A stretch of DNA of 32,575 nt from assembly GCA_001512965.1 (NCBI GenBank), contig LFRW01000017.1:134-32708 (forward strand), read 5' to 3'. The notes below the pieces were generated by a model, which saw only the letters and a list, made by a program, of their open reading frames with translations, ran no database searches and was not told where the DNA came from. The position numbers were made by a program, and so were the translations under genes. Origin of the DNA: Methanomicrobia archaeon DTU008 (GTDB lineage Archaea > Thermoplasmatota > Thermoplasmata > Methanomassiliicoccales > Methanomassiliicoccaceae). Positions 7,946 through 20,280 of the stretch are shown one piece after another. Each line of letters begins with the position of its first letter. Positions within the stretch are counted from its first letter, which is position 1.

Positions 7946-7956
7946 AAAAATATAAG
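7946..7956 (+). promoter_or_regulatory. TATA box of tRNA-Thr
   Basis: AAAAATATAAG lies 30-40 bases before the first tRNA base (7986). This fits an archaeal promoter producing a short 5' leader that RNase P would remove. Confidence 0.6.
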
Positions 7957-7985: not shown

Positions 7986-8090
7986 GCCACTGTAGCTCAG
8001 CGGTCATGCGCTCCGTTCAGGCGCGCATCGCTAAGGAGCGGCGGTTTCGTAAACCGTAGGTCGGGGGTTCGATTCCCTCCAGTGGCTCCA
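7986..8090 (+). tRNA. tRNA-Thr(CGT) with D-loop intron and encoded CCA
   Basis: The arms are: acceptor 7986-7992 paired with 8080-8086; D stem 7995-7998 with 8036-8039; anticodon stem 8041-8045 with 8053-8057 (outer G-T wobble); anticodon CGT at 8048-8050; T stem 8063-8067 with 8075-8079 around TTCGATT. The discriminator is T8087 and CCA is encoded at 8088-8090. T at the discriminator suits archaeal threonine tRNA. Read continuously, the D loop would be 37 bases. Removing 8005-8034 gives a normal 7-base loop (AGCGGTG) with the GG pair in place. The mature RNA is 75 bases including CCA. The downstream minus-strand ThiC family gene ends only 2 bases after the CCA. Confidence 0.93.
8005..8034 (+). 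other. 30-base tRNA intron in the D loop with perfect bulge-helix-bulge
   Basis: The folding is exact. The D-stem helix GCTC/GAGC (7995-7998, 8036-8039) continues into a 4-bp central helix AGCG/CGCT (7999-8002, 8029-8032). A 3-base bulge GTC (8003-8005) sits on one side and a 3-base bulge AAG (8033-8035) on the other. A 6-bp intron helix ATGCGC/GCGCAT (8006-8011, 8023-8028) closes an 11-base loop. This is the substrate form of archaeal tRNA splicing endonuclease, which cuts after the second base of each bulge. That places the cuts after 8004 and 8034. The site corresponds to about tRNA position 20/21, not the usual 37/38. Confidence 0.88.
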
Positions 8091-8092
8091 CG

Positions 8093-9352
8093 TCACTCAT
8101 TTCTCAGATATTTCTGCACCAGCTTGATGGCGCATACATCTCCGCACATCGAGCAACCGTCCGATTCGGCAGTACTGCCCCTGGCGCGGTACTCCTTGGC
8201 CTTATCGGGGTCCAGCGCCTCACGGTACATGGATTCCCAGTCAAGCTCCCTACGGGCTTCCGCCATTCGCATGTCCCGCTCCCGCCCGCGCCCCCTGGCC
8301 ACGTCTGCGGCATGGGCGGCGATCTTCGAAGCGATCACTCCTTCCTTCACATCATCGGGGGTCGGCAGCGATAGATGCTCGGCCGGGGTGACGTAACACA
8401 GGAAGTCGGCGCCATGGTATGCCGCCAGAGCGCCACCTATGGCCGAGGTTATATGGTCATAGCCTGGCGCGATGTCCGTGACCAGGGGACCGAGCACGTA
8501 GAAGGGCGCCCCGTCACAGATGCTCTTCTCCAGCCTGACGTTCGCCTCCACCTGGTCCAGGGGGACGTGGCCTGGACCTTCCACCATGCACTGCACGCCT
8601 GCCTTCCGACACCTCTGAACCAGTTCCCCCAGGACGATGAGCTCTTGCACCTGCGCTCCGTCGGTGGCGTCGTGGATGCAGCCCGGCCGCATCCCGTCGC
8701 CAAGCGACAGCGTCACCTCGTGCTCCTTTGCCAGCTCCAGCAGGTAATCGAAGTTCTCATAGAACGGGTTCTCCTTCTCGTTGTGCAGTATCCATGCGAC
8801 CAGGAAGGAGCCGCCCCTGGACACCACGTCCGTGACGCGTGGGGACCTCTTCAGGCGGTCGACGACCTCCCTGGTGATGCCGCAGTGCACGGTCATGAAG
8901 TCGACGCCATCCTTGGCATGCTGGACGAAGCCGTTGAACATGTCGTCCTCATCCATGTCCACGACCGCGCTCCTCCTTGCCATGGTCAGACCGATCTGGT
9001 ATATGGGCACCGTGCCCACCGGCATGGACGATTCCTTTACGATGCGGCGCCTGATGGCGTCTATGTCGCCTCCGGTGCTCAGGTCCATGATGGCGTCAGC
9101 GCCGTAGCGCTGGGCGATTCTCACCTTCTCCAGCTCTTCCTCCAGGACCGCTCGGTCACGAGAGGTGCCCACGTTGACATTGATCTTGACGCTCAATCCC
9201 TCTCCTATGCCACACGGCTTCGGCGAGTGCAAAGGGTTGAAGGGTACCACAACGCGCCCCGCTTCCACGCCACGGCGGAGCCGGTCCATGTCCACACGCT
9301 CGTTCCTGGAGATCTCCTTCAGAAGGTCCGTTGAAACGCCCATTACGCTCAT
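8093..9352 (-). CDS. thiC: ThiC family radical SAM enzyme: phosphomethylpyrimidine synthase (or BzaF-like paralog)
   Basis: The protein has 419 residues and a typical ThiC core: INVNVGTS, GADAIMDLSTGGD, SMPVGTVPIYQ, VDFMTVHCGIT, SRGGSFLVAWILHN, EGPGHVPLDQVEANV and FLCYVTPAEHLSLP. ThiC converts aminoimidazole ribotide into the thiamine pyrimidine using a C-terminal 4Fe-4S cluster. Here the cluster cysteines are C400, C403 and C407 (CSMCGDVC). This is a CX2CX3C spacing, one residue shorter than the CX2CX4C of bacterial ThiC. The shorter spacing also occurs in ThiC paralogs and in BzaF-type 5-hydroxybenzimidazole synthases, so the product is not certain. The ATG at 9352 is chosen for the AGGAG about 8 bases upstream. 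No TPP riboswitch consensus was found in the leader. Divergent from gyrB. Confidence 0.85.
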   Translation of the reverse strand: MSVMGVSTDLLKEISRNERVDMDRLRRGVEAGRVVVPFNPLHSPKPCGIGEGLSVKINVNVGTSRDRAVLEEELEKVRIAQRYGADAIMDLSTGGDIDAIRRRIVKESSMPVGTVPIYQIGLTMARRSAVVDMDEDDMFNGFVQHAKDGVDFMTVHCGITREVVDRLKRSPRVTDVVSRGGSFLVAWILHNEKENPFYENFDYLLELAKEHEVTLSLGDGMRPGCIHDATDGAQVQELIVLGELVQRCRKAGVQCMVEGPGHVPLDQVEANVRLEKSICDGAPFYVLGPLVTDIAPGYDHITSAIGGALAAYHGADFLCYVTPAEHLSLPTPDDVKEGVIASKIAAHAADVARGRGRERDMRMAEARRELDWESMYREALDPDKAKEYRARGSTAESDGCSMCGDVCAIKLVQKYLRNE

Positions 9353-9440
9353 CTTCCTCTCTCCTTCCAAAACCGATGTGATAGAAAGACCCTTCCCTGT
9401 GTGGCACATTTTTAGGCGATGCAAAAACAATGGTGAAAGA

Positions 9441-9603: not shown

Positions 9604-12132
<2,529 letters not shown>

Positions 12133-14952: not shown

Positions 14953-16620
14953 TCATTCCGATAACTTGGCCCGGACCTCTTCGATGACCTTATCCGGCTC
15001 CTTGTAATACGCCGAGACTATCTTGGCCACCTGGCGGTAGTTCTCCACCCCGATACGTTTCATGTACTCCAGGATGTCGATGCGCCTCTTCACCTCTCGT
15101 TCCATGTCGAGGGAGCTCCAATTGCGGACCGCTCTCACCTTCTCATAGATGTAGGAATGGCCGGAGTAGGTGAACGAGTCGTCGGCGGGGTTCCAGTAGA
15201 ATACGGTGTTTGCGATCAGCTCCCCGGTCTCGGGGTCCAACCCCACTATCTCGGTTAGCGTCCTCACCCGCCGAGCCATGTTTGAACCTACTTTGACCTG
15301 GCCTTGCAGCAGCACCAGGTCCAGTGAGGACAGCAGCGATCGGGGGAGGTTTATGGGCTCGTTCTCCAGCCTGTTGACCATGGATTGTACCGAATCGGCA
15401 TGCATGGTCGAATATGTCGTGTGCCCGGTGGCCATGGCCTGGAAGATCACGTATGCCTCCTTCCCCCTGACCTCGCCGACCATCAGGTACTGTGGCCTCT
15501 GCCTCAGGGCCGCCGTCAGTAGATCGAACATGTCTATGCTTCCGCCATTGTCACCCATGCCCGAGAAGCCTTCCCTGGTCAGACCAGGCACCCAGTTCTC
15601 ATGCGGAAGGTTGAGCTCCCTGGTGTCTTCGATGCTGACGATCTTCATTTGAGGCGGAATGAACAACATCAAGGCGTTGAGGGTGGAGGTCTTGCCGGAG
15701 GCCGTGCCGCCGCAGACCATCATCGAGGAACCGAACTCCACTGAGATCCAGAGATAGGCCATCATCTCGGTGCTCATGGTATTGAACCCGATGAGGTCGA
15801 CGGGGGTGAACGGATCATCCTTGAACCGACGGATGGTGAAGGAGGAGCCACGCTTTGTGACGTGCCTGCCAAGCGTGGCGTTGAGCCTGGAGCCGTCCGG
15901 GATGGTGGCGTCCAACATGGGCCTGGCCAGGGAGATGTGCTTGCCGCATCTCTGGGCCAGCCATATCACGTATCTGTCCAGCTCCGCTTCGTCCTCGTAG
16001 ATGACATTGGTCCTGATGCTGCCGTACTTGCGGTGGTACACGAACAGTGGCACGCCGACACCGTTGCAGGATATGTCCTCGATGTCTGGATCGGCCATCA
16101 TCACGGTGATCGGTCCGTAGCCGATGAAGTCCCTATGAAGATGGTAGAGGATGCGCTCCCTGGAGACAGGCCGCAAGGTCAGACCAAGAGTGGATGTCAG
16201 CCGATCGACGGCCTTGTCGAGCATCTTCCTGCGATGCTCCGGGGAGGGATCCGATGGAGCGTTAAGTGAGATGATCAGCGCTTTCTTCAACAGCTCGAAT
16301 GCGGCGAGCTCATCCTCGTTCAGCCTTGGCTCCACGACCTCGTACATGTGCTCGGCCGTCGCATCGTCATAGGTGATGCGAGCGTACGAGCGGCCTTCCT
16401 CGATGACCGACAGTTCCACCGTCCCCGCACCGTTCGAGACGATGTGTTCGATGTCGATGATGGGTTCGTCATGATTCCCATGACCGGACCGGTCGCGCGG
16501 AGAGCGGCCCTCCAGGGGTTGCGGAGGAGCATGTTGACGACCTGCTTTCGTCGAAACATCATCTGGTGACTCCTCTGACGATCGCAAGACATCGTCCTCA
16601 GGCATGGTCGACCGCATCAT
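14953..16620 (-). CDS. Type IV pilus/secretion ATPase (TadA/ArlI/GspE-like), second copy
   Basis: The 555-residue protein has a polar, disordered-looking N-terminal stretch (about 1-60), then the N-terminal domain of archaeal secretion ATPases (GYGPITVMMADPDIEDISCNG, FVYHRKYGS). The RecA-like motor has Walker A GGTASGKTST (near residue 308), an Asp box (VSIEDTRELNLPHENWV), Walker B (LMVGEVRGKE) and a His box (GHTTYSTMHADS). All catalytic motifs are intact, so it should be an active cytoplasmic hexameric motor. The ATG overlaps the TadC-like stop (ATGA) with GAGG upstream, so it is the last gene of the operon. It is a paralog of the ATPase at 18553-20280 and shares near-identical DNA tracts with it. 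Whether it powers extension, retraction or a mixed hexamer is unknown. Confidence 0.88.
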   Translation of the reverse strand: MMRSTMPEDDVLRSSEESPDDVSTKAGRQHAPPQPLEGRSPRDRSGHGNHDEPIIDIEHIVSNGAGTVELSVIEEGRSYARITYDDATAEHMYEVVEPRLNEDELAAFELLKKALIISLNAPSDPSPEHRRKMLDKAVDRLTSTLGLTLRPVSRERILYHLHRDFIGYGPITVMMADPDIEDISCNGVGVPLFVYHRKYGSIRTNVIYEDEAELDRYVIWLAQRCGKHISLARPMLDATIPDGSRLNATLGRHVTKRGSSFTIRRFKDDPFTPVDLIGFNTMSTEMMAYLWISVEFGSSMMVCGGTASGKTSTLNALMLFIPPQMKIVSIEDTRELNLPHENWVPGLTREGFSGMGDNGGSIDMFDLLTAALRQRPQYLMVGEVRGKEAYVIFQAMATGHTTYSTMHADSVQSMVNRLENEPINLPRSLLSSLDLVLLQGQVKVGSNMARRVRTLTEIVGLDPETGELIANTVFYWNPADDSFTYSGHSYIYEKVRAVRNWSSLDMEREVKRRIDILEYMKRIGVENYRQVAKIVSAYYKEPDKVIEEVRAKLSE

Positions 16621-17516
16621 ATCAGCCTCGTTCCCACGAACCCTATCGCCAGCATGATGAAGCTGTGACGAAGCCCGCTTGATATCTGTCCATCTTGCAG
16701 CACCCCTGCCAATATGCCGTCGCCGAAGGCATGTATGACGACGGCCAGCACAAGAAGGGTTTGCACCGTGGAGACGACATCGGTCTGGATGGTCACCAGG
16801 GACCCCGAGGCGCCCGCCCTCTCGGCCGCCTCCGTCAGCTGGCTGCCCGCCTCCACCATCTTTGGCAGGAAGGTCGTGTTCAGGATGAATATGGTGGCGA
16901 TGAACACGGCGAACGCAACGTATATCACGACGGTGTAGGTGGCCATGGTGATCCTCCTCTCGTTCTGGTTGAGCATCACCTCTCTGGCATCGTGCGCCAC
17001 CATCGTGAGCACGTCCGCCACGTTGCCTCCAACATCGTTCGCCTTGATTATTATGGCCGTCATCCTGCGGACCATTGGGGTGTCGACGCGGTCGGCGAAC
17101 AGCCGTATCGCGTCCGATGCAGGCACGCCCCATTCGATCTGGGCCGCCATTCGACGGATCTCCGGAGTCAGCCTCCCATAGCGTCCCTTGGACGCGGCCA
17201 CGATGGCTTGCGATAGGGTCATGCCGAAGCGGCCTGCCTCAGCCACATCTCGAAGGAACTCGGGAAGACGTCTTTCTATGTCGCGAACCCTCATCCTCTG
17301 ATAGGTCATGTAGAATCCATAGGGGCCGGATATGGCCATAAGACCGAAGATGAGGTAGTCGATCCACTCCCCTGGCAGGGCCACCCCTCCCACGTGGTCC
17401 ATGGATCCGAGAATGAACATGAGCGCGGCGACCGCAATGCCGGCGATAAGGATGGCCTTGCCATGGTCGAGGCGGTTTCGCTTCAGTTGGTCCAGGTCCA
17501 ATATCTCCTCGGTCAT
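16617..17516 (-). CDS. TadC/ArlJ-like pilus platform membrane protein
   Basis: This 299-residue membrane protein carries a type II secretion F domain. There are two N-terminal membrane segments (about 17-38 and 50-70). A cytoplasmic helical domain follows with the family pattern RRLPEFLRDVAEAGRFGMTL...A, LTPEIRRMAAQIEWGVPASDAIRLFADRVDTPMVRR, and the IIIKANDVGGN block. C-terminal membrane segments lie near 193-217, 254-277 and 284-298. Such proteins anchor the motor ATPase and the growing pilin fibre in the membrane. The ATG at 17516 is preceded by GAGGTG that overlaps the upstream TGA, showing coupling to the TadB-like gene. A GTG two codons earlier is possible. It pairs with the TadB-like protein, and archaeal pilus loci often have two such subunits. 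Confidence 0.85.
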   Translation of the reverse strand: MTEEILDLDQLKRNRLDHGKAILIAGIAVAALMFILGSMDHVGGVALPGEWIDYLIFGLMAISGPYGFYMTYQRMRVRDIERRLPEFLRDVAEAGRFGMTLSQAIVAASKGRYGRLTPEIRRMAAQIEWGVPASDAIRLFADRVDTPMVRRMTAIIIKANDVGGNVADVLTMVAHDAREVMLNQNERRITMATYTVVIYVAFAVFIATIFILNTTFLPKMVEAGSQLTEAAERAGASGSLVTIQTDVVSTVQTLLVLAVVIHAFGDGILAGVLQDGQISSGLRHSFIMLAIGFVGTRLI

Positions 17517-17523
17517 GCCCACC

Positions 17524-18552
17524 TCAGAACGACGACTCCTTGGTCGTATTCCATATCAGGAATATGAAGCCGAACTGTGAGAACGGCACTATCACTACAA
17601 TGACCACCTCCAACAGGAACATGGTAAGGGCAGGGCTCCCGCCTCCCGGGATGATGGCCATGATGGCCATGATCACCACTAGGAACAGGGGGAACGCCAC
17701 CACCACCGTGACGAAGGTCTCCGCCATGAGACCGATCGTCTCCAACTGGGAGCGCATGGCCAGTTTCCCTTCTTTCTCGAACTGCTCGGCCTTTTGCAGG
17801 AAGTATGGCTTCAGCCGGCCGCCCGAGGTAGAGATCGTCACCACGCCCTGGAGGAATTCCTGGAACTTCACCGACGGCGTCCTCTGGGCGGCGCGGCCGA
17901 TGGCGGTGAGTATGTCGAAGCCCAGAAGCTCGTTGTCGCGGGCGATCCATTCCGCCTCGTTCTTGATCTCACCATATATGTCCTGCCTGGCCAGTTCCTT
18001 GAATATCACGTCGATGTTGACGTCGGCGGAAGCCATGGCCGAGATGAAGCTCATGGCCGGACCTATGCGCTTGTCTATGTCCCGCCCCCTCTCCTTGGCC
18101 TTGATCGAGGGCATGGCCATGAGCATCCCTAACGTGATGGCCGGCGGCAGAGGGATGATGAGGACGGACACCATCATGACGATCTCCGCCGGTGCTTGAA
18201 GCATCGACAACATGGCGATGGCGAGCAAGAGGCCGATCGCCAGGGAAGACAACAGGACCAGCAGGACGGTCGTCCACACATACGCGGTGTATTCCTCCGC
18301 CCTCATGCGCACATGAGCCTGTTGAAGCTGCAGTTCAAGCCTGGAATCCAGCTTCGCTCTTCTGACAACGGCCCCGCCCATGACCTTCCAGCAGAACATC
18401 TGGTACCTGGTCAGATCGATATACTTGGGAGCCGACCCGCCGGATCGGCCGACATCATGGGAGCCAGCATCCTGACCCTGACCGGCCTTCATGCGCCTTT
18501 TCTTGCGCACATCCTGCCTGGATGGGCCGTTGGACAGCCTAGATGCCATCAT
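17524..18552 (-). CDS. TadB/ArlJ-like pilus platform membrane protein
   Basis: This 342-residue protein has a basic, polar N terminus (about residues 1-45). Membrane segments lie near 88-117, 121-146, 275-297 and 303-335. A cytoplasmic helical F domain sits between them (KERGRDIDKRIGPAMSFISAMASADVNIDVIFKELA, then SVKFQEFLQGVVTISTSGGRL). It belongs to the same superfamily as the next gene and is likely its partner in the inner platform of a pilus or secretion machine. Two adjacent ATGs (18552, 18549) follow a GGAGG that overlaps the end of the upstream ATPase gene. The first is reported; the second has slightly better spacing. Only one base separates the ATPase stop from this start. Confidence 0.83.
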   Translation of the reverse strand: MMASRLSNGPSRQDVRKKRRMKAGQGQDAGSHDVGRSGGSAPKYIDLTRYQMFCWKVMGGAVVRRAKLDSRLELQLQQAHVRMRAEEYTAYVWTTVLLVLLSSLAIGLLLAIAMLSMLQAPAEIVMMVSVLIIPLPPAITLGMLMAMPSIKAKERGRDIDKRIGPAMSFISAMASADVNIDVIFKELARQDIYGEIKNEAEWIARDNELLGFDILTAIGRAAQRTPSVKFQEFLQGVVTISTSGGRLKPYFLQKAEQFEKEGKLAMRSQLETIGLMAETFVTVVVAFPLFLVVIMAIMAIIPGGGSPALTMFLLEVVIVVIVPFSQFGFIFLIWNTTKESSF

Positions 18553-20280
18553 TCACCCCTCCTCCCGTAGCTCATTGCGCATGCGTTCGGCGACCCCTTC
18601 TGGATCCTTGCTGTACCTGTTGATGATCTCCCAGATGCGGCGATGGTCGGTGATGTCGTGATGCACCATGTATCTCACCACGTCCATCCGCCGGTCGAAC
18701 TCGGCCATCATCTCCTTGTATGTGAGGTCGCGCACCTCCATGATGTGGTCGATCAGGGTGCTGTGGCCCTTGAACACGAAGCGGTCATTGGCCTGGTCCC
18801 ATTCGAAGACGGTGCTGGATATGAGCTCGTTGGTATCTGGCTCGTAGCCAATGATCTCGATGACCTGCCTCATCCGGCGGGCGAGGTCGTTCCCAACCCT
18901 GACCTGTGACTGGAAGATCACATTGCAGAGGGATGTAAGAAGCATGCGGGGGCAGTTGATGGGCTCGTTCTCCAGCCTGTTGACCATGGACTGCATCGAG
19001 TCGGCATGCATGGTCGAGTATGTCGTGTGCCCGGTGGCCATCGCCTGGAACATGGTATAGGTCTCCCTCCCCCTGACCTCGCCGACGATGATGTAGTCGG
19101 GCCTCTGCCTAAGTGAGGCGCGCATGAGGTCGTACATGTCGATCTCACCCGGGGCCTTACCCTTTGGCCCCCGTTCACCTACCCCTGAGCGGGTGGTGCT
19201 GGGAACCCAATTCTCATGTGGGAGGTTGATCTCACGCGTGTCCTCCATGCTCACGATCTTCGATCCGGGCGGTATGAAAAGCGCGATGCTGTTGAGGGTG
19301 GATGTCTTGCCGGAGGCCGTGCCGCCGCAGACCATGGTGGAGGAACCGAACTCGACCCCCAGCCAGAAGTAGGCCATCATCTCCGGGCTGGCCGTCCCGT
19401 TCTTGATCAGGTCCACCGGCGTGAAGGGATGGTCTCGGAATCGGCGGACAGTGAACGTCGACCCCCGCGTCGTGACCTCCCGGGCATACGTAGCCTGGAC
19501 GCGGTGCCCTTCTGGACTGGTGCCGTCAAGGATCGGATTGGCCACGGAGATCTGCCTCCCGCATTTCTGTCCCAGCGCCACAACGTAGGAGTTCAGCTCC
19601 TCCTCGTCGTTGAAGACCAGTCCGGTCTTCATGCTGCCGTACTTGCGGTGGTACACGAACAGTGGCACGCCAACACCGTCGCAGGATATGTCTTCTATGT
19701 TGCCGTCGCGCATCAGGACGTCCGTCTTTCCATATCCGATGAAATCCCTCAGGATGTAGTAGCCTATCCGTTTCCTGGATAGGGGGCTTATCATATACCC
19801 GCGGCTGCGCGCGAAGCTATCGAAGTTCCTCAGAAGATGATCCCTCTTGTCTGAGGCGTTCGGCTCATCCCATTCATAGCGAAGCGCTCTCCCCATGGTT
19901 TCCTTGGCCGCGGCCAGCAACCTCTCTTCATCCTGCTCCAGTCGAGGCTCCAGCACTTCCAGGAAGTACTCGCTGATGTCCTTATCATATGTGATGCGGA
20001 CGTAGCTGTACGGCTCCATCACCGCGTAGGTCTCCACGGATCGGACAGCTTGTCCCTCGATCTCCGGGACCTCGGTGATGGGCAGGTCATCTTCATCGCC
20101 CCAACCTGATCGTTCGGTCGCTCCATCGTCTGAGGTCCTCCCGGCGGCGGATCGAGAGGTCAGCCCTTGCAGGGCCCTGACGTAGCTCCCTCTCAGCCTG
20201 CCCCTTAGGCCCCCTATCGGGCTGGTTGCACGCTCGTTCCCGTCCAGGTCACCAGTCTTCCGAGGCCCGGCCTCTTGCAT
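18553..20280 (-). CDS. Type IV pilus/secretion ATPase (TadA/ArlI/GspE-like), first copy
   Basis: This 575-residue protein opens with about 80 polar residues rich in G, R, S and D, unlike the other copy. The N-terminal ATPase domain follows (GYGKTDVLMRDGNIEDISCDG, FVYHRKYGSMKTG). The motor has Walker A GGTASGKTSTLN (near residue 325), an Asp box (VSMEDTREINLPHENWV), Walker B (IIVGEVRGRE) and a His box (GHTTYSTMHADS). It has a GERGPKGKAPGE insert near residue 370 where the paralog reads FSGMGDNGGS. Function is expected as motor for pilin assembly or substrate export at the membrane. Excellent initiation context: GAGGTGAGAG directly precedes the ATG. It follows the pilin-like gene by 8 bases. 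Confidence 0.9.
   Translation of the reverse strand: MQEAGPRKTGDLDGNERATSPIGGLRGRLRGSYVRALQGLTSRSAAGRTSDDGATERSGWGDEDDLPITEVPEIEGQAVRSVETYAVMEPYSYVRITYDKDISEYFLEVLEPRLEQDEERLLAAAKETMGRALRYEWDEPNASDKRDHLLRNFDSFARSRGYMISPLSRKRIGYYILRDFIGYGKTDVLMRDGNIEDISCDGVGVPLFVYHRKYGSMKTGLVFNDEEELNSYVVALGQKCGRQISVANPILDGTSPEGHRVQATYAREVTTRGSTFTVRRFRDHPFTPVDLIKNGTASPEMMAYFWLGVEFGSSTMVCGGTASGKTSTLNSIALFIPPGSKIVSMEDTREINLPHENWVPSTTRSGVGERGPKGKAPGEIDMYDLMRASLRQRPDYIIVGEVRGRETYTMFQAMATGHTTYSTMHADSMQSMVNRLENEPINCPRMLLTSLCNVIFQSQVRVGNDLARRMRQVIEIIGYEPDTNELISSTVFEWDQANDRFVFKGHSTLIDHIMEVRDLTYKEMMAEFDRRMDVVRYMVHHDITDHRRIWEIINRYSKDPEGVAERMRNELREEG

Follow-up and report, generated by a model that had tools for sequence, protein, structure and literature searches.

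Known noncanonical tRNA introns and splicing endonucleases in archaea

Noncanonical introns bounded by bulge-helix-bulge (BHB) motifs are found mainly in Crenarchaeota, Nanoarchaeota, Thaumarchaeota, Korarchaeota and a few thermophilic methanogens, and position 20/21 of the D loop is one of the listed noncanonical sites (PMC4090602), so this kind of intron is already known. According to the same review, Euryarchaeota with alpha4 or alpha2 splicing endonucleases (EndA) carry introns at the canonical position only. Multiple-intron tRNAs have been described in M. thermautotrophicus and M. kandleri (PMC4033280), which means that euryarchaeal exceptions are known as well. A 2014 paper names Korarchaeum as the sole archaeon that combines an alpha2 enzyme with noncanonical introns, and credits a specificity loop of this enzyme (PMC4033280). 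The alpha'2 enzymes of A. fulgidus and T. acidophilum are tabulated as narrow, accepting canonical BHBs (Hirata review, PMC6379350), and the homodimeric EndA of Ferroplasma (Thermoplasmata) cuts minimal BHB substrates outside tRNA (PMC8707768). For tRNA introns of Methanomassiliicoccales, we found no description in the open literature, and the intron described here may already stand in GtRNAdb without comment.

A tRNA-Thr(CGT) gene with a D-loop intron

The analysed stretch, called the window here, comprises 32,575 nucleotides of one contig of Methanomicrobia archaeon DTU008, an archaeal draft assembly of 1.76 Mb with 98.98% completeness. The original prediction, made from the sequence alone, had placed the intron in a host outside Crenarchaeota, and the genome indeed belongs to Methanomassiliicoccales, class Thermoplasmata. 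Read from the sequence, positions 7986-8090 (plus strand) are a tRNA-Thr(CGT) gene with an encoded CCA, in which the D loop is interrupted by a 30-nt intron. The 5' exon (7986..8004, plus strand) covers tRNA positions 1-20 and starts with the 5' strand of the acceptor stem (7986-7992), the intron occupies 8005..8034 of the same strand, and the 3' exon (8035..8090, also plus) contains positions 21-73 and the encoded CCA, with the anticodon CGT in an anticodon loop reading TTCGTAA. The intron lies between positions 20 and 21, not at 37/38, which is a noncanonical position. A TATA-box-like element, AAAATATAAG (7946..7955, plus strand), is situated 31-40 nt upstream of the gene and, judged by the archaeal promoter consensus, may be its promoter element. 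On the other side the gene has a convergent neighbour, thiC (8093..9430, minus strand; Pfam PF01964), which served as the marker of the orthologous locus. The threonine codon ACG makes up 130 of the 449 Thr codons in 19 genes of the window.

Besides, two other regions of the window were noted. The segment 10951-11523 encodes a mini-intein in GyrB (Pfam PF14890, residues 440-630 of ORF 9634-12132), adjoining the Toprim domain. From the translations, 14953-20280 (minus strand) appears to contain two tandem gene sets of a secretion/pilus ATPase and membrane proteins, resembling an archaellum or type IV pilus.

The intron and its borders can be folded on the plus strand as follows. The D-stem pairs GCTC (7995-7998) with GAGC (8036-8039), and it is continued by a central helix of 4 bp, AGCG (7999..8002) with CGCT (8029..8032). 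This helix is flanked on opposite strands by two 3-nt bulges, GTC (8003..8005) and AAG (8033..8035), which is the arrangement that defines an archaeal BHB, and an intron stem of 6 bp follows, ATGCGC (8006..8011) with GCGCAT (8023..8028). In a BHB, each 3-nt bulge is cleaved between its second and third base, which predicts cuts at 8004/8005 and 8034/8035. No shifted pair of borders in this gene gives an identical spliced product, and the predicted junction is the same as that seen in intronless orthologues. These helices and bulges, all proposed beforehand, are also what the centroid fold of the unspliced RNA returned; it was better than 200 of 200 dinucleotide shuffles (z -3.7). We scanned both strands of the 32.6-kb window for strict Watson-Crick BHBs (4 bp, 4 bp and 6 bp with 3-nt bulges), and it turned out that exactly one exists, at tRNA-Thr(CGT), while the same scan found none in 6 shuffled windows.

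ARAGORN identifies the spliced sequence as tRNA-Thr(CGT) and gives it a complete cloverleaf, in agreement with the predicted identity. The expectation that standard callers could overlook the gene was also borne out: ARAGORN with introns switched off and Rfam at the gathering score both missed it, and ARAGORN with anticodon-loop introns allowed miscalled it as tRNA-Arg(TCT).

Conservation and covariation of the BHB in relatives

An intron at the identical junction of tRNA-Thr(CGT) was found in 50 distinct forms from relatives. Without aligning them by structure, we counted pairs at constant distances from the exon borders. All 50 relatives have the D-stem and central pairs 2-4 paired. Central pair 1 is paired in 40 of 50, so that these have all four central pairs, and the remaining 10, one of them from the same genus, have A-G at this place, indicating a slightly relaxed BHB in those 10. 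The first three pairs of the intron stem are paired in 50 of 50 relatives despite 2-5 pair types each. In total, 89.5% of the intron-stem cells are paired, compared with a mean of 60% (maximum 69%) after the 3' arms were swapped between sequences.

For covariation, 40 forms were aligned with plain MAFFT by sequence only. In this alignment, both partners have changed in all six intron-stem pairs and in one pair of the central helix (CG to TA). The covariation score is 0.247 versus 0.112 for the shuffled control, and the signal was lost when the partners were slid by 1-3 columns (at most 0.084). The relatives' introns share little sequence between the stems. The pairing is kept and covaries while the sequence and length of the intron vary: selection acts on the RNA shape at the exon borders of tRNA-Thr(CGT).

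Intronless orthologues and distribution of the intron

Family f2 and some other genomes have a tRNA-Thr(CGT) gene without the intron, whose D arm reads GCTCAGCGGTAGAGC. One intronless orthologue, G262, reads GCTCAGCGGTGGAGC, exactly the D arm left when 8005-8034 is removed. The predicted intron borders at 20/21 match this orthologue, and the normal D loop that splicing was expected to restore is the one it possesses. A convergent thiC lies beside tRNA-Thr(CGT) in intron carriers of several families as well as in intronless genomes of f2, f19 and f23 and in one of f3 (G040), which places the presence and absence of the intron at one orthologous locus.

Two individual genes were also noted. In G040, the thiC-linked tRNA-Thr(CGT) without intron (L238) is strongly diverged, and perhaps the gene was replaced and did not simply lose its intron. 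For a genome of family f25 (L197, G100), ARAGORN gives tRNA-Thr(CGT) a 13-nt anticodon-loop intron in place of the D-loop intron.

We summarized the distribution by DNA patterns, since the covariance model proved too general a tRNA model and was set aside. The Thr D-loop intron exists in five of the six Methanomassiliicoccales families (f1, f3, f4, f5 and f6) and, outside this order, in two further Thermoplasmata families (f8 and f24). It is absent from f2, f28 and the f3 genus represented by G040. In most of the other Thermoplasmata families sampled, the Thr(CGT) genes that were read lack it too. A tuned DNA pattern matched 47 records in a search of 84,980 species with one genome per species, and all 47 titles name Methanomassiliicoccales or Methanomassiliicoccaceae, Methanomassiliicoccus, Thermoplasmata, Thermoplasmatota, or Euryarchaeota/euryarchaeote.

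The RpoB tree places f2 together with f5 (100/99) inside Methanomassiliicoccales, so the lack of the intron in f2 is best read as a loss. Only f13 separates f8 and f24 from Methanomassiliicoccales in this tree, with an uncertain placement (88/91; one-clade test p 0.195), and a single gain followed by losses is about as parsimonious as two gains. Taken together, the comparison indicates that the Thr intron is old and is shared by most of Methanomassiliicoccales and by f8 and f24, not a peculiarity of the DTU008 genome. The original prediction had considered the intron notable for one such genome; the unusual host stands, but the scale was understated, as the intron is probably ancestral across most of the order and in two other families of the class.

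A second D-loop intron in tRNA-Leu(CAA)

The same genome contains another D-loop BHB intron, of about 23 nt at roughly 21/22, in tRNA-Leu(CAA) (G000:C19:5648-5758; L100, L242), which ARAGORN mislabels as Glu(CTC). This intron is kept with compensatory changes in f1, genus g6 of f3, f4 and f6, and it is absent in other f3 genera, where a clean empty site reads GGTCAAAGGC. D-loop introns are therefore no one-off in the Methanomassiliicoccales lineage. We also noted a weak tRNA match in this genome, L101 (G000:C2:68542-68621), which by eye resembles a tRNA-Arg(TCT) with a 37/38 intron.

The splicing machinery and alternative explanations

The genome has one EndA gene, whose product of about 351 aa is a single chain that holds two PF02778 and two PF01974 repeats. 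On this basis, the host enzyme is classed as alpha'2, arranged as in A. fulgidus and T. acidophilum, and the single gene with two repeats suggests that it works as a homodimer. In the C-terminal repeat, Tyr, His and Lys (Y290, H298 and a lysine of the VKK motif) align to the solved EndAs of M. jannaschii and A. fulgidus. The 10-residue Crenarchaea-specific loop, which lies between YYG and LxLSLIE in A. pernix EndA, is missing from the host protein (YYG-LQLSLIE) and from the other Methanomassiliicoccales EndAs in which the motif was read. A gene for RtcB is also present.

Our reading, held with near certainty, is that this tRNA-Thr(CGT) gene is functional and that its single BHB intron, at the noncanonical site 20/21, was inherited within Thermoplasmata and is spliced by the host alpha'2 EndA and RtcB. 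In the pre-tRNA, the D-stem, the 4-bp helix that D-loop bases 14-18 form with the 3' end of the intron, and the intron stem would make up a strict BHB. The homodimeric alpha'2 EndA would recognise this shape and cut at the two predicted sites, and RtcB would join the exons of the expressed transcript, so that the D loop of the product has its normal 7 bases. The intron itself would have come from an ancestor within Thermoplasmata and would have been lost more than once at one locus. Two points speak against this reading: a review assigns to alpha4 and alpha2 enzymes the BHBs in the canonical place (PMC4090602), and the first central pair is A-G in 10 of the 50 relatives.

A broad-specificity endonuclease had been expected from the position of the intron, and the analysis does not bear this out. 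Such enzymes, of the (alpha-beta)2 or epsilon2 type, have a separate beta-subunit gene or a chain of three units, together with a Crenarchaea- or ARMAN-specific loop. We looked for these features and found one EndA gene per genome, without the 10-residue insert. It could be argued that the lineage EndA gained broad specificity by a route other than the known loops, and that the intron is spliced only for this reason. Both Thr and Leu tRNAs have D-loop introns, and the central helix is imperfect in some relatives, which would suit such a gain. However, nothing is inserted at the loop position in the Methanomassiliicoccales EndAs read, and homodimeric EndAs are reported to cut loop-type motifs as well (PMC8707768). 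The motif in the window is strict and the Ferroplasma enzyme cuts minimal BHBs, so broad specificity is not required; an alpha'2 EndA should cut a strict BHB wherever it is located, and one in the D loop should suffice. We thus regard a gain of broad specificity as improbable, and we think it likely that a loop-less, "narrow" alpha'2 EndA routinely splices D-loop tRNA introns.

The insert might also be retained, the tRNA working with an enlarged D arm, and its shortness would allow this. Yet the insert varies from 16 to 31 nt while the two 3-nt bulges and the 4-bp helix persist, and the intronless orthologues have the spliced D loop. Moreover, a mature tRNA needs G18 for the contact between D loop and T loop, and the BHB fold occupies this base. 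Retention is therefore very unlikely. Least credible of all is a relic or pseudogene with ACG read by another tRNA: tRNA-Thr(TGT) is present and could in principle wobble to ACG, but no further tRNA-Thr(CGT), which the original prediction had named as a sign of a relic, was detected in the 98.98%-complete draft, the exons of this single detected copy are strongly conserved with compensated changes in the anticodon stem, and the gene persists beside thiC across families, so we rejected this reading.

Comparison with known systems

The lineage studied here brings together two old D-loop introns, kept across families of a methanogen-containing order, and a loop-less alpha'2 enzyme. In the reviews, noncanonical archaeal tRNA introns go together with an EndA that is heterotetrameric or bears a loop, and the present case contrasts with this. 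If the alpha'2 enzyme does splice such introns routinely, its restriction would be the strict BHB shape and not the anticodon-loop position, and the link between enzyme type and noncanonical introns would reflect the quality of the motif, not its location. Relatives with and without the intron at one locus provide a system in which the loss of tRNA introns can be studied, as well as the question whether the enzyme is limited by position or by motif. Besides, where a caller lacks a BHB model, the tRNA-Thr(CGT) and tRNA-Leu(CAA) genes of these genomes go unannotated or receive a wrong label.

Like other noncanonical archaeal BHB introns, the one described here is short, has a BHB at its exon-intron borders and lies at D-loop position 20/21; unlike them, it has a Methanomassiliicoccales host, is a single intron inherited across families and occurs with an alpha'2 EndA that lacks the loop. 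Korarchaeum cryptofilum also combines noncanonical introns with a homodimeric alpha2-type EndA (PMC4033280), but the korarchaeal enzyme is reported to have a Crenarchaea-like specificity loop and that of DTU008 has none. The host enzyme resembles the alpha'2 EndAs of A. fulgidus, T. acidophilum and Ferroplasma acidarmanus in having two repeats per chain, the second of which bears the catalytic residues. For the first two of these species, narrow specificity is tabulated (PMC6379350), whereas the substrates here would include D-loop introns. While the intron class and the 20/21 site are known, two things appear to be new, namely how deeply the intron is conserved in this lineage and that it occurs together with a "narrow" alpha'2 enzyme.
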